Notes: a model not told the origin generated them from the sequence alone. Shown: positions 13,334 through 25,697, counted from the first letter of the stretch. The stretch: 64,000 nucleotides of DNA from Haladaptatus cibarius D43 (GCF_000710615.1 NZ_JDTH01000002.1:1852082-1916081), one strand, 5' to 3'. A program made the numbers and translations.

Positions 13334-14965
13334 TTACTGCATGTAGCCGAGGTCGGCCAGTCGCTCCTCGACGCCTGCTTCGTCGTCGCTGTCCATCGAA
13401 ACGTCGTCGTCTTCGTCGTACTCCGGATAGCTCTGTGAACCACTATCGTCAACGACCGGAATTACGTCTCCGTCCATTCGGTCGCTGTACGGAATCCCGA
13501 ACGCGGACATAATGGTCGGCGCAACGTCGAAGAGATGAGCCTTCGTCGGCATTCCGTCCGGGTCGATTCCCCTTCCTTGCGCGGCGACGATACCCTCTAT
13601 TTTGTGATTCCACGGTTCGGTCGGCGGTGCGAAGTAATCGCCAAGCAGTTGTGCAGAGAGGAACTGCCCCATCTCGTTCGGAATCGTCACGATGTCCGGG
13701 GCGTTGTCGGCGTTTTTCCCGTGGAAGTACTTCTCGCGGGGTGCGACTTCGCCGAAGACCGGTTCGCCGTCGGGTGTTTCTACCCCACTGAGTTTTTCTA
13801 TCAAGTCGTCGCGGACTTCGTCGTACTTGTCCGGGGGAACGATACCCTGCGGTTCACGGCCGCGCAAGTTGATTCTGACGCCCAACTCGGTTCGGGCGCG
13901 CATGTAGGCGGTCGATTTCGGGAAATCGACCTGCTCGTTTCCGGTTCGGGCGACGTTTTTCGGCGCGTACTGCTTTGCGATTTCCGCCAGCCCGACCTTC
14001 TCCAAACCAGTTCTGATTCGGTGGGCGGTGAACCCGAACTCCGCCATCTTCGCGGCCATTCGCTCGAAGGTGTTCGGTTCCCACGTCTTCGTATCCTTGC
14101 CTTCCCGGAGTTCCTCCTGAATCGGGTTCCACGACGGCATTCCTTTGCCACCTTTCCGTGCCTTCACGTAGCCTTCGTCGCGCAGAAACTCGTTGACGCG
14201 GAACTCGTACTTTTCGTAGGGACCCATCCCGTGGTCGCTGGCGATGAGAACCGTGTTCGGGTCACACTCCTCCAGCAATTGGCCGACCTGCTTGTCGGCT
14301 TCCTCGTAGACGGTTTTCACCTTGTCCCACTCGCCGTTGAACTCGTGGAAGACGGTGTCCGTCTTCTGGAATTGGACGAACCCGAAGTCGGGTTCGTGTT
14401 TGTCGGCCAGATAGCGGAACGCCTCGCCGCGCATGCGGACGAGGTTCGTGTACTCGTCCATCTTTTCAGCGTCCGAGAGTCGCTCGTCACCGCGGGTGTA
14501 GTTCGGATAGACTCGATAGTCGCCGATTTCGTTGCGAACCTCGTCCAGTAGCCCTTCCGGATAGCACCGGGGGTCTTCCGGCCCGATGAAACCCGGAATT
14601 ATCGCGCCATCGATTTCTTCCGGTGGATGGGTAACTGGCACGTTGACGACGACACTCGATTTGCCGTGTTTATCGAGCAGCGACCATATCGAGTGTTCCT
14701 CGACGTCGTTTCCGCTGACGACGTGGAAGTCGTAACCTTCGTAGGCGACGAACCCACAGACGCCGTGTTGTCCGGGGTTGACCCCCGTGTAGAGTGACGG
14801 CCACGCACTCGGCGTCCACGGCGGCATCTGGGACTCGAGCGGGGCGGACGCGCCATCCTCACAGATAGACCGAATGTTCGGGATAACGTCTTCTTCGTAG
14901 AGGCGTTCGAAAACTGGCAGACAGCCCGCGTCGATACCGATGAGGAGGACATCTACGTTACTCAT
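13334..14965 (-). CDS. Alkaline-phosphatase-superfamily phosphodiesterase/pyrophosphatase
   Basis: A 543-residue protein of the type I phosphodiesterase/nucleotide pyrophosphatase family. The opening strand VLLIGIDAGC supplies a metal Asp, PPWTPSAWPSLYTG carries the Thr/Ser nucleophile region, and IASDHGMGPYEK supplies the Asp-His metal pair. A further metal site is likely around NHKIEGIVAAQG. It has no signal peptide. Related haloarchaeal genes often lie near surface-polysaccharide clusters, but none is seen here, so the substrate stays open. It is transcribed in the same direction as the FAD-Rieske gene, 78 bp upstream of it. Confidence 0.85.
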   Translation of the reverse strand: MSNVDVLLIGIDAGCLPVFERLYEEDVIPNIRSICEDGASAPLESQMPPWTPSAWPSLYTGVNPGQHGVCGFVAYEGYDFHVVSGNDVEEHSIWSLLDKHGKSSVVVNVPVTHPPEEIDGAIIPGFIGPEDPRCYPEGLLDEVRNEIGDYRVYPNYTRGDERLSDAEKMDEYTNLVRMRGEAFRYLADKHEPDFGFVQFQKTDTVFHEFNGEWDKVKTVYEEADKQVGQLLEECDPNTVLIASDHGMGPYEKYEFRVNEFLRDEGYVKARKGGKGMPSWNPIQEELREGKDTKTWEPNTFERMAAKMAEFGFTAHRIRTGLEKVGLAEIAKQYAPKNVARTGNEQVDFPKSTAYMRARTELGVRINLRGREPQGIVPPDKYDEVRDDLIEKLSGVETPDGEPVFGEVAPREKYFHGKNADNAPDIVTIPNEMGQFLSAQLLGDYFAPPTEPWNHKIEGIVAAQGRGIDPDGMPTKAHLFDVAPTIMSAFGIPYSDRMDGDVIPVVDDSGSQSYPEYDEDDDVSMDSDDEAGVEERLADLGYMQ

Positions 14966-15125
14966 CGTATCTCACCCGGGACATAGCTTCGGCCAGCGTA
15001 TCTCGTTTCTTCCGTCGGACAGGAACCATATCGACCCTGCGCTGCGACGCTCGCCAGACTCATTGCTGGCTCCTACCAGTTCTACTCATTTTATTATGGC
15101 ACGCTTAAACCTCCACGACAGTAAA

Positions 15126-16550
15126 TTAGTCGCCTTCGCCGTCAGTAGCAACCGTGCTGGTGTCGTCGATGACAGTTCGCTTCCACGTTCCACGGGTGAA
15201 CCAGAGCGCGGCGGCGACTGCTCCGACGACGTTGCCGACTGCCATTCCCATCCAAATCCCGGTCGGCCCCATGTCCTGAACGAATGCGAGATAGTAGACG
15301 ACTGGAACCCGCCCAAGCCAGAGCGCCACCATCGAAAACGCCATCGCAGTTTTCGTGTTTCCGGCCCCGCGGTACGCACCGAGCAGCACCTGTAACAGAG
15401 CCATAAACGCGAACTCGACGGAACGAATCCGGAGATACTCACTTCCGAACTCGATTGTTGCCGCGGCCTCCTGCGTTCCCGTCGCCATGAATACGCCGAC
15501 GATTGGTTCCGGAAACAGTGCCGCAACGATTGCAACGGAAAGCATGACGGCGGAGCCAACCTTCGCCGCGAGCCAAACGGCGCGCTCCGCACGGTCAGGT
15601 TTCTCCGCGCCGAGGTTCTGCCCGACCATCGTGTTGGTCGCCCGGCCTAACCCCATTGCCGGGAGAAACACGAGTGAGGCGAGGCGATTACCAAGTCCGT
15701 AAGCGCTGACCACGGGCGGCGCGAACTGGACGACCATTGCGGTCAGAGTAATCATCGCCAGCGCACTGGTGGATTGTTCGAGCGCGCTCGGCGTACCGAG
15801 TCGAACGATGTCCCAAATGTATCCGAGGTCGGGAACGAGGTCACCGACCTGTACGTCCGGCCCGGCGCTGGTTCCGAACAGGATGTACAGTCCGAGGACG
15901 GTTGCGACCGCTCGCGCGGAGATGGTTGCGAGCGCGGCACCTTGGATTCCCATGCCTTCAATGGGACCGAATCCGAAGATGAGTAGCGGATCGAGAATGA
16001 CGTTCACGACCACGCTGACGAACATGATTCGCATGGGCGTCCGAGTGTTACCGTAACCCCGCATCAGCGAACTGAAGACGAAGAAGCCGAAGAGGAACGG
16101 CAGGCCGAGGAAGAACACTTCCATGTACTGGCGAGCGAGCGGAACGACATCCACCGTCGTCGCTCCCTGAGACGGCATCAGTGTGAGCATCGGTTCGGTG
16201 AGGAAGAAACCGAGCGTCCCGAGGACGACCGAGAGGAGTGCCACGAACGACAGAATTTGTCCCGCGACTTTTCCGGCAGACCCTTCGCTATCGGCCCCGG
16301 TGTATTGGGCGACGAGGATGCTCCCGGCGGTCGTGAATCCGCCCGCGATGGAGATAAGGAAGAAGATAAGCGGGAACGCGATACTCATCGCGCCGACCGC
16401 GTTGGCGGAGAGTCGACCCAGCCAGAAGGTGTCCGCGACGTTGTACATCACCTGCAACAACTGAATAACGACTATCGGCCACGCGAGTTCGAACATCGGT
16501 CGCACCAACCCACCCTCCGTAATCGAACTGCTGGGCTGTGTGCTAGTCAT
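15126..16550 (-). CDS. MATE family efflux transporter
   Basis: A 474-residue integral membrane protein with 12 hydrophobic segments in two related halves, opening FELAWPIVVIQLLQVMYNVADTFW, the standard MATE N-terminus. MATE proteins export cationic or aromatic compounds in exchange for Na+ or H+. This copy is intact. A closely similar but broken copy lies at 22346-23762. Upstream of the ATG (16557-16600) are repeated GAAAC/GTTTC half sites that might be regulatory. Confidence 0.9.
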   Translation of the reverse strand: MTSTQPSSSITEGGLVRPMFELAWPIVVIQLLQVMYNVADTFWLGRLSANAVGAMSIAFPLIFFLISIAGGFTTAGSILVAQYTGADSEGSAGKVAGQILSFVALLSVVLGTLGFFLTEPMLTLMPSQGATTVDVVPLARQYMEVFFLGLPFLFGFFVFSSLMRGYGNTRTPMRIMFVSVVVNVILDPLLIFGFGPIEGMGIQGAALATISARAVATVLGLYILFGTSAGPDVQVGDLVPDLGYIWDIVRLGTPSALEQSTSALAMITLTAMVVQFAPPVVSAYGLGNRLASLVFLPAMGLGRATNTMVGQNLGAEKPDRAERAVWLAAKVGSAVMLSVAIVAALFPEPIVGVFMATGTQEAAATIEFGSEYLRIRSVEFAFMALLQVLLGAYRGAGNTKTAMAFSMVALWLGRVPVVYYLAFVQDMGPTGIWMGMAVGNVVGAVAAALWFTRGTWKRTVIDDTSTVATDGEGD

Positions 16551-16826
16551 CGTACTTTCGAAACGAAATAGTACCGTTTCAATATTTCGACTCTAAAATC
16601 AGGTGGCAATATCTACCAGAACCCGGCTTCGAGGTCATGTCCGCAGGAACCGCGGGAGAGATTTCCGAAAGGTAATTCGGGTTTAAAAACAGCCTAAACC
16701 GGGCAAAAGTGGATTTAGGCGGTAGTGAAATCCAGAGATAGTCACGACGTCCATCTGACCAGCCGTCGAAACCGAAGTACTCATAGCCGTTAGGTGCACC
16801 AATGGAGACGGAACGAACGGACATTT

Positions 16827-18146
16827 ATGATACTGACTGGAACAGTCGTCGCCGACGCGACGACGATTATCGAGGACGGGGCAGTCGTCGTCTCCGGCGA
16901 GACGATCGAAGCAGTCGGTGACCGCACCGAACTGCTCGACAGATACGCCGAACACGACGTAGACGAGTACGACCTTCTCCTTCCGGGCCTCGTCGGCGGC
17001 CACATTCACTCGGTACAGAGCCTCGGGCGAGGAATCGCCGACGACGCCGAACTGCTCGACTGGTTGTTCGAATACGTCCTCCCGATGGAAGCCAATCTCG
17101 ACGCGGAGGAGATGTACGCCGCGGCCCGATTAGGCTATCTCGAACTCATCGAGAGCGGGACGACCACCTGTATCGACCACCTCTCGGTTCGGCATGCAAA
17201 TCGAGCCTTCGACGCCGCGGAGGAGATGAGAATCCGGGGTCGCATCGGAAAGGTGCTGATGGACAAACGCGCCCCCGAGGGACTCCACGAAGTCACCGAG
17301 GCGGGACTGGAAACGACGGAAGACCTCATCCGGCAGTACCACGGCGCGAACAATGGCCGGATTCAGTACGCCGTCACGCCGCGATTCGCCGTCTCCTGTA
17401 CCGAGGAGTGTCTCCGCGGTGCGCGACGATTAACCGACAAATACGACGGCGTAAGAATCCACACGCACGCGAGCGAAAATCAGGACGAAATCGTCACCGT
17501 GGAATCCGACACCGGCCAGCGAAACATTCACTGGTTGGACGAAGTCGGATTGACTGGCGAAGACGTCGTCCTCGCCCACTGCGTCTGGACGGACGAATCG
17601 GAGCGCGAGGTGCTTGCGGAGACGGGAACACATGTCACCTACTGTCCCTCTTCGAACATGAAACTCGCCAGTGGAATCGCGCCAATCATCGACTACCTCG
17701 ACCGGGGAATCAACGTCGCGCTGGGCAACGACGGCCCGCCGTGCAACAACACGTTAGACCCCTTCACCGAAATGCGGCAAGCGAGCCTCCTGCAAAAGGT
17801 GGACGAACTCGACGCGCAGGCGGCCCCCGCGGGAACCATCTTCGAGATGGCGACGATAAACGGCGCTCGCGCCGCCGGATTCGACCGCGTCGGAAAACTC
17901 CGGGAAGGCTGGCAGGCAGACATCATCGGCGTGACAGCCGACATCACCCGCGCGACACCGCTGTACGACCCGCTTTCGCACGCCGTTTTCGGCGCGCACG
18001 GCGACGACGTGGAGTTCACGATGGTCGCCGGAGACGTGCTTCAACAAGACGGCGAGGTCGTCGTCGCCGACGCCGACGCGATTCGCGCGGAGGCGAACGA
18101 AATCGCGGCAGGGCTAGACGTGGCTCCCGAAACCGGCATCTTCTGA
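16827..18146 (+). CDS. Amidohydrolase (5'-deoxyadenosine / SAH / methylthioadenosine deaminase type)
   Basis: A 439-residue metal-dependent hydrolase of the amidohydrolase superfamily. Metal ligands are seen in GGHIHSVQSLGRG, IHTHASEN and VLAHCVW, and the catalytic Asp in ALGNDGPPCNN. The order and spacing match the MtaD/DadD group that deaminates adenosine-like nucleosides in methionine and S-adenosylmethionine recycling; other cytosine-deaminase-like roles cannot be excluded. The start at ATG 16827 (MILTGTVV) gives the normal N-terminal beta-sandwich. The frame is open upstream to 16794, but those residues do not look like protein. Confidence 0.85.
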   Translation: MILTGTVVADATTIIEDGAVVVSGETIEAVGDRTELLDRYAEHDVDEYDLLLPGLVGGHIHSVQSLGRGIADDAELLDWLFEYVLPMEANLDAEEMYAAARLGYLELIESGTTTCIDHLSVRHANRAFDAAEEMRIRGRIGKVLMDKRAPEGLHEVTEAGLETTEDLIRQYHGANNGRIQYAVTPRFAVSCTEECLRGARRLTDKYDGVRIHTHASENQDEIVTVESDTGQRNIHWLDEVGLTGEDVVLAHCVWTDESEREVLAETGTHVTYCPSSNMKLASGIAPIIDYLDRGINVALGNDGPPCNNTLDPFTEMRQASLLQKVDELDAQAAPAGTIFEMATINGARAAGFDRVGKLREGWQADIIGVTADITRATPLYDPLSHAVFGAHGDDVEFTMVAGDVLQQDGEVVVADADAIRAEANEIAAGLDVAPETGIF

Positions 18147-18163
18147 GCGTTGCCGATTTCCGG

Positions 18164-18325
18164 TTATCTTCTCAACGCGGCGATTGCCGTCGCAGGCGTT
18201 GAACCGTGAGCAGATCGACCGGCTGCGTCTTCTGCAATCCACTGGCCATCGGGCGTTTGTCGAACGGTCGCTAGGTCGGCAGGGTTGCGAACCGCGTATT
18301 CGTCGTCGTGATGCTGGAGGTGCAT
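18164..18325 (-). CDS. Small HicB-like hypothetical protein
   Basis: ATG 18325 to TAA 18164 encodes 53 residues. The segment VRQTPDGQWIAEDAAGRSAHGSTPATAIAAL has the strand pattern and G-x-T-x-x-x-A-I ending of HicB-type antitoxin folds and of short haloarchaeal relatives. No HicA toxin gene is adjacent. A TATA-like TATTAG lies about 29 bp upstream and contains the start of AGTTAACAA. It is convergent with the amidohydrolase gene. Function is unknown; similarity is by pattern only. Confidence 0.55.
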   Translation of the reverse strand: MHLQHHDDEYAVRNPADLATVRQTPDGQWIAEDAAGRSAHGSTPATAIAALRR

Positions 18326-18462
18326 GGATGGTAATTAGTAACGCACCTTGTTAACTAATAGCCAGATAAGTATGTAGTAGGGATCGCTTGAACCGCCGAT
18401 TTCGGACGATTTCGGAAGCGCGAGCGAGATGGTATTTAGCAGAGTGACGAGAACGGTTCGAT

Positions 18463-18558
18463 ATGACGCATTCGATTCAGGGCTTTGACCACATCGCGCT
18501 GCCCGTTTTCGACCTCTAACATGCAGTGTCGTTCTATCGGGAAGTCGCACACCGGAGA
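18463..18558 (+). pseudogene. Remnant of a VOC (glyoxalase/bleomycin resistance) family gene
   Basis: ATG 18463 begins GFDHIALPVFDL, the first beta strand of VOC-family proteins. It meets a TAA at 18517-18519 and then continues in frame with HAVSFYREVAH, which is the next conserved block of the same fold (normally A-x-x-F-Y). After about 32 codons similarity ends where the convergent alpha/beta hydrolase gene stops at 18559. Both the stop and the truncation show a dead gene. The junction may mark one boundary of the inserted AT-rich island at 18.5-22.3 kb. Confidence 0.75.
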
Positions 18559-19773
18559 TTATCGGACTGTAGTACACCAGTTGGACACCCACTGGATGAG
18601 GTCGTCCGCTACGTTTGCTTGGGGTTGGCCGGAGTGGCCGTTTTCATCTTCTTCTACGAACAGGTGGTTGAGGTCGTCGAAGAGACGGAACGAAACACCG
18701 TCTTCCGATTTCAACTCCGATTTCCATACTTCGAAATCCTTCTCGGTTGAGATTTGGGCATCCCGTTTTCCTTGTGCGATTCTCACGGGTACATTGAGGT
18801 CGGATGCTGTCTGTACTGGTTCGTAATCAGAGAGGCTATCCCAAAACGAAACGGGGAACTCCAGCAACTCCACGTCATCGTTCCAATCCCGATTACGTAT
18901 TTGTTGATACTCGCCTTCCAAAGACCGTAGTTGACTAGCATCGACCGCGCCCTCATCGGCCAGCGTGCGGTACTGGTCGATAACTACGTCTTCCAATCGG
19001 CGAGCGTTCGCGGCGAGGAGGATACCCCCCTGTGCGTTCGAGCGGCGGATAATCGCCGGAGCGAGCATGCCGCCCAAACTATGCCCAATCACGAAGACTT
19101 CGGAGATGTCCTTACGATTTGCTATCTGATTCACCGCATTAACCGCATCATCCAACACCAAGTTATCTACCGTGCATTCGTTCTCGTTCAGGTCGTAGGA
19201 GTAGGTTCGTTTGTTATATCGCAGCGTCCCGATTGTTTGGGAGGCAAGTCCGTAACCGAGGTCACGAAACGGCTTGTAGGATTCCAATGAACAGTCCATG
19301 TCGTGAGGACCTGACCCGTGAACCAGCACTACACCGGGATACGGTTCTTCCGCGGTCGGCAGTGCGATTTCTCCCGAGAGAGGATATTCGTCACTGCCGA
19401 CGACGACTTGTTCGCAACTGAACCGAGATTCATCGACGTACTCCGGAAGCACCGTCGTGCCCCGTTGCTGCGAAATGTATTGGAGTCCGGAGATGGACTC
19501 GTCTCCTCCCGAAAAAACGATTCGAAGGGTCTGTTGACCATCATCGAACTGCAGTTCCACGTTCCGAATCTGATACGGGTCTGCATCTTGTGTTCGAACG
19601 GTTTCGACAGAATTGAACTCGCCGAGCGTCTCAGTTAATCGAATCCAGTCCGATTCGAGTTTCGAGGAGGGGTACGCCTCTGCGAGGTCGTCGGTAAAAT
19701 AGCGTTCTGCTGTATCAAACTGGTGTTGCTTTAGAGAAGTTACGAAGTTATCAATAATTTGATTCATATTCAT
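18559..19773 (-). CDS. Alpha/beta hydrolase with DUF3887-like N-terminal domain
   Basis: About 404 residues from ATG 19773 (MNMNQIID); a longer start at ATG 19836 is possible but reads as non-protein. Residues 1-100 resemble the DUF3887/SnoaL-like domain (FVTSLKQHQFDTAERYFTDDL). Residues about 120-400 form an S9/dienelactone-type hydrolase with VVLVHGSGPHD, nucleophile Ser232 in IGHSLGG, an Asp in RIAQGKRDAQIS and His in DDLNHLF, so the triad is complete. No signal peptide is seen. It lies 81 bp downstream of the radical SAM gene on the same strand and is less GC-rich than the housekeeping genes, so it probably belongs to that operon, perhaps for peptide processing or self-protection. That role is inference. 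Confidence 0.8.
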   Translation of the reverse strand: MNMNQIIDNFVTSLKQHQFDTAERYFTDDLAEAYPSSKLESDWIRLTETLGEFNSVETVRTQDADPYQIRNVELQFDDGQQTLRIVFSGGDESISGLQYISQQRGTTVLPEYVDESRFSCEQVVVGSDEYPLSGEIALPTAEEPYPGVVLVHGSGPHDMDCSLESYKPFRDLGYGLASQTIGTLRYNKRTYSYDLNENECTVDNLVLDDAVNAVNQIANRKDISEVFVIGHSLGGMLAPAIIRRSNAQGGILLAANARRLEDVVIDQYRTLADEGAVDASQLRSLEGEYQQIRNRDWNDDVELLEFPVSFWDSLSDYEPVQTASDLNVPVRIAQGKRDAQISTEKDFEVWKSELKSEDGVSFRLFDDLNHLFVEEDENGHSGQPQANVADDLIQWVSNWCTTVR

Positions 19774-19854
19774 GTTTTTAGTTGATGAACTACGACGTAA
19801 CCGCTGCTTTAATATTCTATCAGTGAGTGTGTTCAAATAAGTTATAGGGTTCTT

Positions 19855-20907
19855 CTATGCCGTATCTGCGATATTGTCCAGACGTTGTATGATTGCCGGT
19901 TCGTGGTCAACCATGGACTGAGCGTCCCTTTTGATTGTGTCACTCAGGAAGATATCATCACGCACGATGTCTTCTTTGTTCTCTCGAACGTACTCCAAGA
20001 ACTCCTCACGATAGTTTCCAAGCAGGTCGTGACAAGCGTGGCAGATACCGCTGTACTCGCCCTCGACGCCGATTCGCTCCAAGAGCTTTTTCGGGCCAAT
20101 ATTGTGAATTAGCCAATAAATCATATTCTCTTGGCTATTGTGGACAATATCCATAAGCGATTTCTCGTCCAAACTTCCCAACGTCAGGTCGGGAACGTAC
20201 CACTGTGCGTGGCCGCAGCAGGCTTTTATCGTCCCGTCTGGATGGAGTGAAATTGTACTTACGACGTCGGAGCAGCCGGAATCGACGCCATTCCGAGCGG
20301 TCAATTCCGTAACGTCAATCTGGGCACCACGACCGAGTGGTGAAACGGTGTCTTCCAGAATCGTCAACCTATCGGAGTACGCGTCCGGATGTGCGCCAAA
20401 TCGCTCGGTGAGCAAGTCTATCATCGCTTGCGCATCATAGGTTGGGTTTTCGTCCCCGATAATCATGGCAACGGAAGTTTGTTTGAGGTCGCTCTCAACA
20501 GCCGCCTCCACCAAATTCACGATGTTGTCCGGCGGGGCGTACTCCGTGTGAAAGTCGTCGTAGCTGGTGTTAATTTCATCCAGTCCGGCATCAACGAGCT
20601 TCTTAATCATGCTTCTGGCACGCTCCATGTTGTGTGCCCACCAAGCGTTCGTGACGATTCGGGTTCGATAGCCTCTGGATTTCGCCTCTTTTATCGATGC
20701 AAGCAGTTTGTCGAGGTGAAGCGTTACCTCACCTCCGGTGAACACGACGAGCTGTAAGGTATCGAGCTCCTCCGCTTCCTCGAACGCTTGGTCGATATAT
20801 TCATCAGACAGCTCATATTTTGTCTCCGGGCTACTCCCGACACTACAGTGGTCACAAGCGAAATTACACTTGTAATCGAGGAACATGGAGAGAGTGCTCA
20901 CGTACAT
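19855..20907 (-). CDS. Radical SAM protein with SPASM-like C-terminal cysteines (candidate RiPP maturase)
   Basis: A 350-residue radical SAM enzyme. The 4Fe-4S/SAM site is Cys14-x3-Cys18-x2-Cys21 (YKCNFACDHCS), followed by the glycine motif VVFTGGEVTLH. The C-terminal third has five more cysteines (Cys212, 230, 231, 289, 292) around HPDGTIKACCGHAQW and ICHACHDLLG, a SPASM/Twitch-like arrangement for auxiliary clusters found in peptide-modifying enzymes. The start at ATG 20907 overlaps the TAA of the upstream gene by one base (TAATG), so translation is coupled. Pairing with a small-residue-rich partner suggests it modifies that partner's C-terminus. Confidence 0.85.
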   Translation of the reverse strand: MYVSTLSMFLDYKCNFACDHCSVGSSPETKYELSDEYIDQAFEEAEELDTLQLVVFTGGEVTLHLDKLLASIKEAKSRGYRTRIVTNAWWAHNMERARSMIKKLVDAGLDEINTSYDDFHTEYAPPDNIVNLVEAAVESDLKQTSVAMIIGDENPTYDAQAMIDLLTERFGAHPDAYSDRLTILEDTVSPLGRGAQIDVTELTARNGVDSGCSDVVSTISLHPDGTIKACCGHAQWYVPDLTLGSLDEKSLMDIVHNSQENMIYWLIHNIGPKKLLERIGVEGEYSGICHACHDLLGNYREEFLEYVRENKEDIVRDDIFLSDTIKRDAQSMVDHEPAIIQRLDNIADTA

Positions 20908-21431
20908 TACGTGACCCCCACGTATGTTTCGACAGCAACTGCAGCAGCGGCGGTATGAACAGCGCCGACAGTGTTGTAGACACCAACGGCGACGACGGCT
21001 ACACACACTGCGGCGACGGTACATGCTGTCGGCTTAACATCGTTGTCACCGACTGTTCCGTTTATCTCGACGCTATCTTCCACCTCGCGCGCACGTGCAT
21101 TGACGCGGATTATCGACTGCATCTGCTCATCCGTCAAGGAGTTTTCAGTAGACCGTTTCTGGAGGTCAGCGACTTGGTCTTCCTCCAGATACGGGAGGTT
21201 TTTCGGAGTTATCAGACCGGGATTTATCTCCTTTTGGAGGTCGTTAAGATCGGATTTTTCGACGTGGTTCGACCCAACTTCCTCAATCAGTTCTGGTGTG
21301 AATACGCCGTCCATGTGGACGAGCATATTCGTCTGCAGAACTTCATCAACTCCGTGACCAAAATCAAACTCTGATCGCTGAGAAACGCTGTCCGTGTGAT
21401 CTATTTGTCGTGAAGCTTTTACAGCATCCAT
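20907..21431 (-). CDS. Candidate RiPP precursor / partner of the radical SAM enzyme
   Basis: A 174-residue protein I do not recognise. Residues 1-134 are acidic and probably helical, including TPELIEEVG and SLTDEQMQSIIRVNARAREVE. Residues 135-174 change abruptly to a tail made almost only of Ala, Val, Thr and Gly, with Cys137 and Cys143, His159 and two Tyr, ending in YVGVT. A leader followed by a low-complexity Cys-containing core is what a substrate for a radical SAM maturase (for instance thioether or carbon-carbon crosslinks) would look like. The gene overlaps the radical SAM start. A TATA-like TTTAAAA lies about 30-35 bp upstream of the ATG. The tail could instead be a membrane segment. 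Confidence 0.6.
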   Translation of the reverse strand: MDAVKASRQIDHTDSVSQRSEFDFGHGVDEVLQTNMLVHMDGVFTPELIEEVGSNHVEKSDLNDLQKEINPGLITPKNLPYLEEDQVADLQKRSTENSLTDEQMQSIIRVNARAREVEDSVEINGTVGDNDVKPTACTVAAVCVAVVAVGVYNTVGAVHTAAAAVAVETYVGVT

Positions 21432-21700
21432 CGTAAATTTTAATATACAGATGTACTTTTTAAATATATTTAATAATTTCCGACATTTTAAAGAGGATTA
21501 ATTGTTATAAAAATAATTCTGATTTAAAAGAGTGTGTAAATCATCTCGATTTTAGGAGATGAGACAATTTCATGGCGCATAAGGATAGAATATCTAAAAT
21601 AAATTGAGATAAATAAATAAAAATTTTATTGATTTTTTCCTTTATCCGTCAGTATGAAGATCGTAGAAAAATATTTGTGCAATAGTGACTAATATATCAT

Positions 21701-22006
21701 ATGGCCGTAGATCGACTGATACTCACACTCACGAGTGGTCTGTTCGTGGTCGTACTTGGTGCCCTCATCAAATATAAAGGAATGTCCAAGCTGATTGCAG
21801 GATACGACCCGGACGAAGTAGCCGACGAGCAAGGACTGAATAACTTCATTGGAACGAACGCCATTCTCGTTGGAGTTCTCACGATGGTTGTGGGAATCGT
21901 CGACTACCTGGGCGTATTTGAAAATATCGTGTGGATTGCCTTCGGAGTCATCGTCGTCATCTTCGCCGGAAGAATGATTTTCGGCTCGCGCCGATACACC
22001 TACTGA
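21701..22006 (+). CDS. DUF3784-like membrane protein
   Basis: A 101-residue protein with three hydrophobic segments (about 6-23, 51-67 and 73-91). The first loop reads SKLIAGYDPDEVADEQGLNNFIG, which resembles the LIAGY motif of the DUF3784 family of small membrane proteins. An AAAAATATTTG element about 30 bp upstream can serve as TATA box. It is transcribed away from the radical SAM operon and converges on the next gene with a one-base gap. Function is unknown; a role in immunity or export for the peptide locus is speculation. Confidence 0.65.
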   Translation: MAVDRLILTLTSGLFVVVLGALIKYKGMSKLIAGYDPDEVADEQGLNNFIGTNAILVGVLTMVVGIVDYLGVFENIVWIAFGVIVVIFAGRMIFGSRRYTY

Positions 22007-22007
22007 T

Positions 22008-22190
22008 TTATGCAGGTATCTGCATATCGGCCACGAGCGTGTCTCCACAAGAGTGGCATTCGGCGCGAGGTTCTTCCTCTTCATCCTTGCCAGCAACACT
22101 GAATAGCGAGCCACCCATCACTGCCGCAAGTGCAAGAAATGTCTGGAGTACGGTACGCCGATTCACTAATTCAAGTTTTTCTGATTTCAT
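22008..22190 (-). CDS. Small exported protein with a CxxC motif
   Basis: A 60-residue protein with a twin-arginine N-terminus (VNRRTVLQTFLALAAVMGG) and a charged linker (KDEEEEP). It ends with AECHSCGDTLVADMQIPA, half of a zinc ribbon or a redox CxxC. A TATA-like CATATAG at 22217-22223 predicts a leaderless transcript at ATG 22190. The Tat motif resembles that of the interrupted gene at 2655 (NRRNVLQ). It could be a membrane-anchored or secreted small metal-binding protein; function is unknown. Confidence 0.6.
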   Translation of the reverse strand: MKSEKLELVNRRTVLQTFLALAAVMGGSLFSVAGKDEEEEPRAECHSCGDTLVADMQIPA

Positions 22191-22345
22191 TATTATTTTT
22201 ATCTGGCCATCGTACTATATGACCACGTTAATGTAAGTTATTAATTACAATATATCTTTCGTCTAGTTCGCTCAAGATTATAATCTGAACTATCCGCGGC
22301 AAGGCTCACGAGAGAGAGAGTCCACAGAACACATTTCCACCGATT

Positions 22346-23762
22346 TTACTTCTCAACGCCGGTCGATGAGAATTGTACCGGGTCACTGATGACGGCCTGC
22401 TTCCACGTGCCGCGAGTGAACCACAGTCCGGCCCCGATTGCGCCCACGATGTGCCCAATTGCGACACCCAACCAGATGCCAGTCGAACCGAGGCCGAGGA
22501 CGATGGAGAAGTAGTAGACGACGGGAACCCGACAGAGCCACAGCGTCACCATCGAGAACACCATCGCAGTTTTCGTGTTTCCGGCCCACGGTACGCCCCG
22601 ACGAGGACGTGGAACAGACCGATGAAGACGAACTCGATGGTTCGAATTTCGAGATACTCGGATGCGTGGCGAAGCGTTTCGTTTGCGTACTCCGAGCCAC
22701 TGGAAAGGAAGACGCTGACGAGGATGTCCGAAAACGCCAGCGCAACGAAAGCCACGACGACCATTACCGCACACCCCGCTTTTGCAGCCAACCAGACGGC
22801 CTGTTCCGCGCGGTCAACCTTGCCCGCGCCGAGGTTTTGGCCGACAATCGTGTTCGTCGCGCGACCCAGTCCGACCGCCGGGAGGAAAACGAGGGAGACG
22901 ATTCGATTGCCGAGGCCGTAGGCCGCGATAACCGGCGAGACGAAGGTGACGATAATGGCGGTGAGAGTGAGCATCGCCAGCGCGCCGGAGGATTCCTCCA
23001 GCGCACTGGGCGTGCCGATTCGGACGATGTCCCAAACATGAGAAACGTCAGGGACGAGATTTTCGAGTCGGATATCCGGGCCAAACGACGTTCGAAAGAG
23101 GATATAAAGACCGATGACAGTCGCCACACCGCGGGCGAGGACGGTCGCAATCGCGGCCCCCTCAATTCCCATTCCGTCGATTGACCCCCAACCGAAGATG
23201 AACAGCGGGTCTGCGACGACGTTCAACAGGACGCTGACGGTCAGGACTCGCATCAGGAGGCGGGTGTTTCCGTACCCGCGCATGAGCGCAGAGAAGACGT
23301 GAAAGCCGAAGATGAACGGCGTTCCGAGGAACAGCACTCGAAGGTAGTCGGTGGCCAACGGAATGACCGTATTCGCAGTCGCGTCCTGTGCCGGATACAA
23401 CGCCAGCAGTGATTCTGCGAGGAAATAGCTAACGCGCCGAGGACGAGCGACAGAACGCCGACGAACGAAATCGTCTGTCCCGTGACTTCTCCCGCGGACG
23501 TGTCGCTTTCCGCGCCGATGTACTGGGCGACGAGCGTACTTCCGGCGACGGTAAATCCGCCGCTGATGGAGATAATGAGAATGCTAACGGGAAGTGCGAC
23601 ACTCAGGGCACCGACCGCGGGTGCGGAGACGCGCCCGAGCCAGATAGTGTCTGTAATGTTGTAGGCAACTTGCAGGAGTTGCGTGATGATAGTCGGCCAC
23701 GCGAGCTTAAATAGTGGTCGCGAAAGCCGTCCCTCGGTAATCGTATCCTACGTTTCCGTCAC
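22346..23762 (-). pseudogene. Broken MATE transporter gene (three lesions)
   Basis: The region is homologous along its length to the intact MATE gene at 15126-16550 (for example ITEGRLSRPLFKLAWPTIITQLLQV against ITEGGLVRPMFELAW). The likely GTG start (23762) is followed by an in-frame TAG at codon 5. A frameshift occurs near 23435 where LGALA should run into FLAESLLALYPAQD. A second frameshift lies near 22590, one base shorter than the other copy in a G run, where VGAYRG should continue AGNTKTAM. The C-terminal part ends at 22346. With three independent defects a sequencing error alone is unlikely. Confidence 0.85.
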
Positions 23763-23861: not shown

Positions 23862-24437
23862 CTACGGCGTTTCGTTCGTCTCGACGCTGATGTCGGCCTG
23901 CGGATAGGCCGTACAGGACAGGAAGTATCCGTTGTCGAGTTCGTCGTCGCTAAGCGTGTCGTTGTTGCTGTGAATGACGTCGTCCGGTTCTCCGTCGGCG
24001 ATTTTCGCACCACAGGAGAGACACGACCCTGCGCGGCAGGAGTACGGAAGGTCCCAGCCTTCTTCTTCGCCTGCTTCGAGAATCGTCTCGTTGCTGGCGA
24101 CTTCGATGGTCGAACCCTCTTTGACGTATTCGACTTCGAAGTATTCGACTTCGTCCTCCGGAATCGCTTCGGGGTCGAAGCCAGCGTCCTCTTCCTCGCC
24201 TTCTTCGCCTTCGAGTTCGCCTTCCGCACCGGCACCCACAGCGACCGCACCGCCACCACCGATAGAGCGGTTCATCGGTTCGGGGAAGTCGGTTTCGGGG
24301 ACACTCGCCGCGCGTCGGTCGAGCACTTCTTGGGAAATGTCGTCCGCGGCGCGCCACTTGGTTCCCTTGGTGAAGTGCAGAGCCACTGCGGTGAGCGTGA
24401 GCAGTAGCCCGAGTCCCAGACCCAGTTCGTTTACCAT
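23862..24437 (-). CDS. Membrane-anchored 2Fe-2S plant-type ferredoxin
   Basis: A 191-residue protein from ATG 24437. Residues 4-20 form one transmembrane helix. A long acidic linker rich in Gly and Glu follows. The C-terminal domain is a plant-type ferredoxin with the cluster ligands Cys134, Cys139, Cys142 (SCRAGSCLSC) and Cys175 (FLSCTA). It would hold an electron-transfer domain at the membrane; polarity is uncertain, but a cytoplasmic domain is likely. The partner is unknown. The frame is open further upstream without protein-like sequence, so the helix start is preferred. Confidence 0.88.
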   Translation of the reverse strand: MVNELGLGLGLLLTLTAVALHFTKGTKWRAADDISQEVLDRRAASVPETDFPEPMNRSIGGGGAVAVGAGAEGELEGEEGEEEDAGFDPEAIPEDEVEYFEVEYVKEGSTIEVASNETILEAGEEEGWDLPYSCRAGSCLSCGAKIADGEPDDVIHSNNDTLSDDELDNGYFLSCTAYPQADISVETNETP

Positions 24438-24556
24438 ATGGCGGAAGCTACGGAACGGTGGTTTAACAGCATTGTGATTGACGGGTGGAAACGGAGTGAC
24501 GGTCGCTCGACCAGCAATCGAATCATTCCATAGAATTAACAGTCGTGGCGAGACGA

Positions 24557-24721
24557 ATGTTGAAAATGGCGACTCCGGCCGAGGCTGTGAGTGTGTTGGT
24601 CGCACTTGAGTTCGTCGTCGTGTCCGCGATAGTGCTTGTCTTGGTTCCGCTCGAAGCGGCGTTCTCGATTATCCCGCTTCTTTTAGTCTTCCTCATTGCG
24701 CTTCATCTGTATCGTTCGTGA
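24557..24721 (+). CDS. Small hydrophobic membrane protein
   Basis: ATG 24557 (or in-frame ATG 24566) to TGA 24721 encodes 54 or 51 residues. After MATPAEA nearly all residues are hydrophobic, giving two segments (VSVLVALEFVVVSAIVLVLV and a second ending LHLYRS) with a short break at PLEA. It is divergent from the ferredoxin and convergent with gnd. The strong membrane-protein pattern and a clear start support coding, but there is no recognised family. Confidence 0.5.
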   Translation: MLKMATPAEAVSVLVALEFVVVSAIVLVLVPLEAAFSIIPLLLVFLIALHLYRS

Positions 24722-24753
24722 GTCATTCTCGTTTCACTCGTCGCTCGCGGAGA

Positions 24754-25647
24754 TTACTCTCGCTTGACCTCGTGCCGACCGAAGCCATATCGAAGTCGAT
24801 TGGCCAACCGCCGCGAGAATCGGCCTTCCGACCGACTGTCGAATCGCTCGCCGAGGGCTTGGTAGATAAGCGGAACCGGAACCTCCTGTTCTAACGCTTC
24901 CTGCACCGTCCACGTCCCGGTCGAACCACCTGCGATGTGGTCGGCCACGTCGCCCAAATCGGTGCCCTCCTCGCGGAACGCTTCCTCACAGAGTTCGAGA
25001 AGCCACGAGCGGATAACCGCGCCGTTGTTCCACGTCCGGGCGACTTTCTCCAAATCGAGGTCGTATCGTCCCTCGTGGAGCAGTTCGAAGCCCTCGCCGT
25101 AGGTCTGCATCAGCGCGTACTCGACGCCGTTGTGAACCATCTTGACGTAGTGCCCCGAGCCTGCTTTGCCCATTCTGTCGTGGCCATCCGAGCCGGTCGC
25201 GACTGCGTCGAACACGGGAACCAGTTCGTCGTAGGCCCACTGCGGCCCGCCGACCATTAGCGAGAAGCCAAGTTCTGCTCCCGCCGGGCCGCCGCTGGTG
25301 CCGCAGTCGAGATACGCCGATTCCGTGGTTTCTGCACGTCGAACCGAGTCCTCGAAATACGAGTTCCCGCCATCGACGACCACGTCGTCCTCGTCAAGGA
25401 ACGGTTCCAAATCCTCCAGCGCGGCATCCACGGGTTCCCCGGCGGGCACCATCAGCCAGATTCGCTTCTCGTCGCCGAGTTTCTCGGCGAGGTCAGCCAC
25501 CGAATCGGCGGGTTCCGCACCCGCCGACTCTGCTGATTCGACCGCCTCCTCGGAGATGTCGTAGGCGACGATGTCGTGTCCCGCATCGAGCGTTCTGTCC
25601 ACTACGATTCGACCCATGCGCCCCAGTCCGATGACGCCCAGTTGCAT
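24754..25647 (-). CDS. gnd: 6-phosphogluconate dehydrogenase (decarboxylating)
   Basis: A 297-residue short-form 6-phosphogluconate dehydrogenase that converts 6-phosphogluconate to ribulose 5-phosphate. The Rossmann motif GVIGLGRMG opens the protein, DGGNSYFEDS is the substrate loop, GTSGGPAG binds substrate, and the catalytic Lys lies in YVKMVHNGVEY. The short form and the Asp-ending second strand (VAYDIS) suggest NAD+ use, as in haloarchaea with an oxidative pentose phosphate route. Confidence 0.92.
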   Translation of the reverse strand: MQLGVIGLGRMGRIVVDRTLDAGHDIVAYDISEEAVESAESAGAEPADSVADLAEKLGDEKRIWLMVPAGEPVDAALEDLEPFLDEDDVVVDGGNSYFEDSVRRAETTESAYLDCGTSGGPAGAELGFSLMVGGPQWAYDELVPVFDAVATGSDGHDRMGKAGSGHYVKMVHNGVEYALMQTYGEGFELLHEGRYDLDLEKVARTWNNGAVIRSWLLELCEEAFREEGTDLGDVADHIAGGSTGTWTVQEALEQEVPVPLIYQALGERFDSRSEGRFSRRLANRLRYGFGRHEVKRE

Positions 25648-25697
25648 GGCAGTAGGTGCTGGTGGGGGAGAGGTAGGGGTTGCGGTTCGAGTTCAGT

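Follow-up and report, generated by a model that had tools for sequence, protein, structure and literature searches.

The locus described here lies in a 64,000-nt stretch of the genome of Haladaptatus cibarius D43 (NZ_JDTH01000002.1:1852082-1916081), hereafter called the window, where three minus-strand open reading frames (ORFs) at positions 18559-21431 encode, in order, a putative peptide precursor, a radical S-adenosylmethionine (SAM) enzyme and a hydrolase. The precursor gene (20907-21431) specifies 174 residues and has one base in common with the gene for the 350-residue enzyme (19855-20907), in a TAATG sequence at 20907. The third gene (18559-19773) has its ATG 81 bp beyond the enzyme gene and encodes 404 residues from this codon, or 425 if the TTG at 19836 is the start; the protein has a DUF3887 region and an EstD-like alpha/beta hydrolase domain, with S232/D338/H370 as candidate catalytic triad. 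The ORFs bore out the order, overlap and spacing given in an earlier annotation made from the sequence alone (the original prediction), which had proposed that these genes may produce a ribosomally synthesized and post-translationally modified peptide (RiPP) of a sactipeptide-like kind.

The precursor consists of an acidic leader of about 133 residues (1–133), with the conserved start MDAVKAA..IDH.xS, and, over about 41 residues (134–174; 20910-21032, minus strand), a tail rich in Val, Ala and Thr, PTACTVAAVCVAVVAVGVYNTVGAVHTAAAAVAVETYVGVT, which is the putative core of the peptide; the leader/core boundary is approximate. The tail carries the two cysteines that had been predicted, at residues 137 and 143. 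Scans of the NCBIfam and Pfam libraries matched the protein to no NCBIfam precursor family above cut-off, to no nitrile-hydratase-like or Nif11 leader and to no Pfam membrane or structural family, an affiliation that the original prediction had named as counting against a substrate role. The precursor is a new family. Structure prediction gave no confident fold (predicted local distance difference test, pLDDT, 43), and the model was not used.

Pairing of precursor and enzyme in haloarchaea

The enzyme and the precursor were sought separately in 392 genomes of the class (haloarchaea). Five of them contained the enzyme, and these genomes also had the precursor, with the two genes adjacent in each. 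A second genome collection yielded no loci in a single-sequence scan and three in an alignment-based scan, two of them in Halorussus halobius and one in the metagenome-assembled genome QS_1_68_17, all with the pair. The predicted pairing of precursor and radical SAM maturase thus held in 8/8 haloarchaeal loci, the window and seven others; enzymes consistently lacking the partner, which would have spoken against it, were sought in the archaeal genomes and were not found. A precursor match in G014 (E = 0.002) was rejected, as G014 has no enzyme and there were stops in the frame examined. In Halocatena salina, one of the five, the pair lies on a 415-kb plasmid, and in the second H. halobius locus (H. 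halobius-2) the precursor gene comes after the enzyme gene. The archaeal precursors open with a common pattern, MDAVxAA..xDHxxS, and end in a tail rich in Val/Ala.

The hydrolase adjoins the pair in two of the eight loci, the window and G246, where the homologues are 37% identical and occupy the same place. In G073, H. halobius-1 and QS_1, the enzyme gene is followed by genes for an ABC ATPase and a permease, and these loci also have a distinct protein that weakly matches DUF3887; in G073 there is a Yip1-like membrane protein as well. Neither hydrolase nor ABC genes adjoin the pair in G101, H. halobius-2 and H. salina, and in H. halobius-2 and G101 it occurs without any other shared gene. Because the accessory genes vary among the eight loci, the core unit is the precursor–enzyme pair, with the hydrolase as an optional addition.

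Synonymous sites have nearly reached saturation between the window and G246, whereas the enzymes are 76% and the tails 88% identical, and for this reason we do not regard the locus as a product of chance. Since the leaders are only 44% identical at the same saturation, the tail is the constrained part of the precursor. The ratio of nonsynonymous to synonymous differences per site (pN/pS) was 0.19 for the enzyme and 0.43 for the precursor, with a pN of 0.07 in the tail. These values bear on whether the island is decayed and non-functional, consisting of relic genes in an acquired AT-rich segment with a broken MATE gene at its flank. The segment is absent from the congener G325, the MATE pseudogene adjoins it, and the pair occurs in just 5/392 genomes; however, the three ORFs are open, all catalytic residues are kept, and the genes are constrained relative to G246, which makes decay very improbable.

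The precursor is also hydrophobic enough for a membrane span, with a maximum mean hydropathy of 2.06 over 19 residues. Together with the lack of a confident fold, this would suit a single-span membrane protein that is not a substrate, its tail being an anchor and the enzyme modifying something else. We consider such an arrangement improbable in view of the strict pairing, which extends to the H. halobius-2 and G101 loci with nothing else in common, and of the tail being the slowest-changing part of the protein. Most non-archaeal relatives of the enzyme, described below, are also encoded next to small proteins whose tails are hydrophobic or alternating.

The enzyme and its relatives

The best NCBIfam match of the enzyme was TIGR04078, the YydG peptide epimerase family (E = 8.3e-34, residues 5–298); the next family, at 5.9e-11, was more than 20 orders of magnitude weaker. 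A sequence search of the PDB returned the structures of the epimerase EpeE (8AI1–8AI6) alone, with E-values of 3e-19 to 3e-18. When an AlphaFold2 model of modest confidence (pLDDT 64) was submitted to Foldseek, nine EpeE chains came out on top (2e-13 to 2e-11), followed by SuiB (1e-8). No PoyD-type epimerase family was among the library matches, and none was compared directly.

The predicted CxxxCxxC site corresponds to C14/C18/C21, and the five further cysteines to C212, C230, C231, C289 and C292. The eight cysteines are all conserved when the eight archaeal enzymes are aligned with nine enzymes from bacterial plasmids and with an annotated Macrococcus EpeE; the exception is a Collinsella gene annotated without its N-terminus. 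C231 (codon 20217-20215) aligns with Cys223 of EpeE, the hydrogen-atom donor of that enzyme (PMC5682303, PMC8326336), and is the candidate donor here; the cysteines characteristic of epipeptide enzymes are present. The archaeal enzymes form one clade in the tree (100/99), apart from the bacterial relatives, and the placement of EpeE, on a long branch, is uncertain. Two archaeal radical SAM proteins from a search of the phylum (L023 and L030) were excluded, having a single cysteine at the position of the donor pair. An archaeal enzyme of the wider family from the same phylum outside Halobacteria (G666; L075, 4673-7940) groups with the bacterial ones and adjoins genes for a 232-residue protein and a papain-like peptidase; the enzyme on the Lactococcus plasmid p001F likewise adjoins a C1 peptidase.

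The sactipeptide-like chemistry originally proposed would require a sactipeptide or ranthipeptide maturase that forms thioether links from Cys137 and Cys143 of the tail to other residues. The cysteine pair is kept in six of the eight precursors, and the C-terminus of the enzyme is SPASM-like (Pfam SPASM, 8.7e-6). Sactipeptides and ranthipeptides have a cysteine in every core, however, whereas the tail of the G101 precursor, LAVLPLPVVAAVAVHVEVTIY, has none, although the G101 enzyme is 53% identical to that of the window. Models for such maturases failed on the enzyme (StsB, 26 of 625 bits and 3.2e-6, compared to 8.3e-34 for the epimerase; PapB, 25 of 340 bits), and the EpeE donor cysteine is kept. 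The absence of cysteine from the G101 tail speaks against an obligatory thioether; mainly on this ground and on that of the family scores, we consider thioether formation unlikely. With profile, PDB sequence and fold all pointing to EpeE/YydG, the locus probably encodes an archaeal epipeptide-like RiPP with D-residues, made by an EpeE-type enzyme from a precursor of the new family.

Besides the H. salina enzyme, a plasmid collection contained eleven bacterial relatives, two of them annotated YydG. In Klebsiella pmk4, Thermus pTA14 and Collinsella, the enzyme is adjoined by a protein with an alternating Asn-x-Asn tail (NANAVANANALANANIMANVN, NWKVNANVHYNVNTNLNVSTNANFNYNANYNYN and NANAVTNANIILNANGMANANANA, respectively), and these loci have methyltransferase genes as well as SdpI or DUF1648 genes. 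Val/Ala-rich or hydrophobic stretches are encoded beside the enzyme in Eleftheria, Streptomyces, Enterococcus and Tropicibacter, and the Rhizobium locus combines a gene resembling those of methyltransferases with an alpha/beta hydrolase. The Asn-x-Asn tail proteins (L043, 3207-3941; L040, 3231-3956; L036, 2599-3504) have a polytheonamide-like look beside an epimerase of an unrelated type; the tails recall polytheonamide, which is a resemblance and not a test. We read the sequences as one broad EpeE-type epimerase family, whose substrates would include the short EpeX at one end and long alternating tails at the other.

A special case of the epipeptide-like reading, so that confidence in the one overlaps with confidence in the other, is that the archaeal system resembles a proteusin: the enzyme would epimerize alternate residues processively, and the tail of about 40 residues would form a D,L beta-helix membrane channel, as in polytheonamide. 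The length and Val/Ala composition of the tail fit this model, as do the alternating tails beside methyltransferase genes in the bacterial relatives. The archaeal tails, however, are without an Asn repeat, their lag-2 alternation of beta-branched residues is weak (p = 0.04 with all eight tails and 0.15 with the five divergent ones), and no methyltransferase was found in the archaeal loci. We regard the model as doubtful.

Genomic setting and neighboring genes

The GC content is 51.0% in the locus and 40.5% in the stretch 21432-22398, compared to 58.1% in the window, in agreement with the AT-rich setting originally described. Pseudogenes had been predicted at both edges; this held on the right, where a frame-broken second MATE gene (22399-23741, minus strand) marks the end of the segment that G325 lacks, but not on the left, which has no recognizable pseudogene: the amidohydrolase gene at 16794-18146 is intact, and the ORF at 18338-18592 had no Pfam match. 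G325 is collinear with the window on both flanks (13335-16593 and 23863-25688) and lacks 16594-22398. It has one MATE gene to the window's two, the broken window copy being 69% identical to it. Compared with G325, the segment 16594-23741 appears to have been acquired through recombination at the MATE gene. The locus was either gained in the H. cibarius lineage or lost in that of G325, and gain is favored because of the lower GC content and the broken MATE copy. A viral origin is not supported, since the enzyme had no match among the phage records searched and just two weak, partial matches in IMG/VR (30% over 115 residues). The IMG/VR entries L080 and L081 are large contigs with radical SAM genes, and the likeness is probably just that of the common radical SAM core.

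The window hydrolase appears to be an accessory protein, a candidate leader peptidase or protective hydrolase, with a remote homologue (23%, 5e-16) in the locus of the Rhizobium relative. The original prediction had it possibly releasing the tail; the case for this is weak, as the hydrolase accompanies few of the pairs and haloarchaea often have DUF3887 hydrolases without the pair. Present in 31/194 genomes, the DUF3887 hydrolase was rejected as a specific marker.

Divergent from the precursor gene lies a gene for a DUF3784 small membrane protein (21701-22006, plus strand), a candidate immunity protein, and convergent with the latter a 60-residue ORF (22008-22190, minus strand) with a twin-arginine (Tat) signal, a Cys pair and the C-terminus LVADMQIPA. 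The DUF3784 gene also adjoins the pair in G246 and H. salina. Because DUF3784 is common in haloarchaea, its link with the pair is no more than suggestive; it occurs in 119/392 genomes and was rejected as a specific marker. Wherever a homologue of the small ORF was found, it lay next to DUF3784: in G246, in H. salina and, in degenerate form, in G118. DUF3784 and a convergent Tat-signal peptide of 58–62 residues, with a Cys pair and the C-terminus LVAxMxIxA (an M-x-I-x-A end), make up a recurring two-gene unit (window, 21701-22006/22008-22190; L007, 11671-11976/stop 11664; L008, 6907-7206/6722-6910; L063), whose degenerate copy in G118 is without the radical SAM pair. In two genomes with no epimerase (G127:C2:335570-336372, L082; G031:C6:226513-227327, L083), DUF3784 directly adjoins a DUF3887-hydrolase lipoprotein gene, and these two genes may be a unit of their own.

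Proposed pathway and comparison with known systems

In the pathway we propose, the 174-residue precursor would be produced with its long acidic leader. The adjacent enzyme would cleave SAM and abstract the C-alpha hydrogen from Val, perhaps also Ala or Thr, in the tail, and Cys231 would give a hydrogen back from the opposite face, converting L- to D-residues. Because epimerization leaves the mass unchanged, the mass spectrometric test originally suggested, based on 2-Da losses, would miss it. The tail would then be released from the leader, by the hydrolase in the window locus and by other means in other loci, and presumably exported. The free hydrophobic tail would act on membranes like the Bacillus subtilis epipeptide, and by this analogy the product is probably membrane-active.

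Several points weigh against an epipeptide-like pathway. The enzyme scored 117.4 bits, compared to a curated cut-off of 300 for membership in TIGR04078. Asp210 of EpeE, mutated in one solved structure, is replaced by Thr218 in the window enzyme and varies across the wider family. The archaeal precursors have 150–180 residues, compared to about 50 for EpeX/YydF, to which they have no visible similarity; the window precursor, at 174 residues to the 51 of Macrococcus YydF, is more than three times longer and lacks the shortness typical of epipeptide precursors. To these come the weak tail alternation and the absence of an exporter and of a known leader protease from the window locus. With a score below the family cut-off, a different type of precursor and no EpeP, the system is not an epipeptide in the strict sense, though it probably functions in the manner of one.

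The closest comparison is with epeXEPAB (yydFGHIJ) of B. subtilis and other Firmicutes; a passage in PMC8326336, citing Popp et al. 2021, reports epipeptide loci from Firmicutes. The mature peptide of the epipeptide class carries D-Val/D-Ile. The archaeal loci resemble it in enzyme fold, in all eight cysteines including the donor, in the hydrophobic tail and, in most cases, in a precursor gene that immediately precedes that of the enzyme. In B. subtilis, EpeAB is an autoimmunity transporter (PMC12871923); the ABC ATPase and permease of three archaeal relatives, absent from the window, are likened to it by gene type and are candidate immunity genes. The differences, besides the family score and Asp210, are in the tail, which has about 20–40 Val/Ala residues in the archaea instead of DLWYFVKS.., and in the membrane peptidase EpeP, in place of which the archaeal loci have alpha/beta hydrolase, DUF3887, DUF3784 or Yip1 proteins, the window's being a cytosolic-looking alpha/beta hydrolase. 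Proteusins such as polytheonamide, made with PoyD-type epimerases, are alike in their long leader and in a Val/Ala-rich tail suited to many D-residues, but have a nitrile-hydratase-like or Nif11 leader, which the window precursor did not match. The PoyD-type epimerases belong to a different family, have a single cluster and are not significantly homologous to EpeE (PMC8326336). The plasmid-borne relatives (Thermus pTA14, Klebsiella pmk4, Collinsella, Rhizobium, Eleftheria, Streptomyces, Lactococcus and Enterococcus mundtii) share the enzyme type and, in most, a hydrophobic or alternating tail beside it; some have a serine/cysteine hydrolase or peptidase nearby, and three have SdpI/DUF1648. They differ from the archaeal loci in having unrelated leaders and, in four, a methyltransferase.

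A survey of archaeal RiPPs lists lanthipeptides, YcaO products, sacti/ranthipeptides and lasso peptides, of which lanthipeptides are those validated so far; its text names no epipeptide or radical SAM epimerase (PMC12144867). Our literature search covered open-licence papers, so that an earlier report of an archaeal epipeptide elsewhere is possible. More tentatively, the loci may represent a RiPP class of haloarchaea and plasmid-borne bacterial loci that is undescribed in the searchable papers, with EpeE-type epimerases, long-leader precursors, alternating D,L tails with many D-residues that form membrane pores, methylation in some bacteria, and immunity by SdpI/DUF3784 or ABC proteins.

If the proposal is true, Archaea would have their first D-amino-acid RiPP of such a kind, and a polytheonamide-like peptide would come from an unrelated family of epimerases. 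The bacterial relatives suggest that the substrates of EpeE-type enzymes are much wider than the short EpeX peptide. The haloarchaeal epimerase–precursor pair is a two-gene system, testable in E. coli or Haloferax, that offers candidate peptides of archaeal antagonism along with candidate immunity genes, and it would bring into archaeal chemistry D-amino acids that a radical enzyme introduces into peptides.
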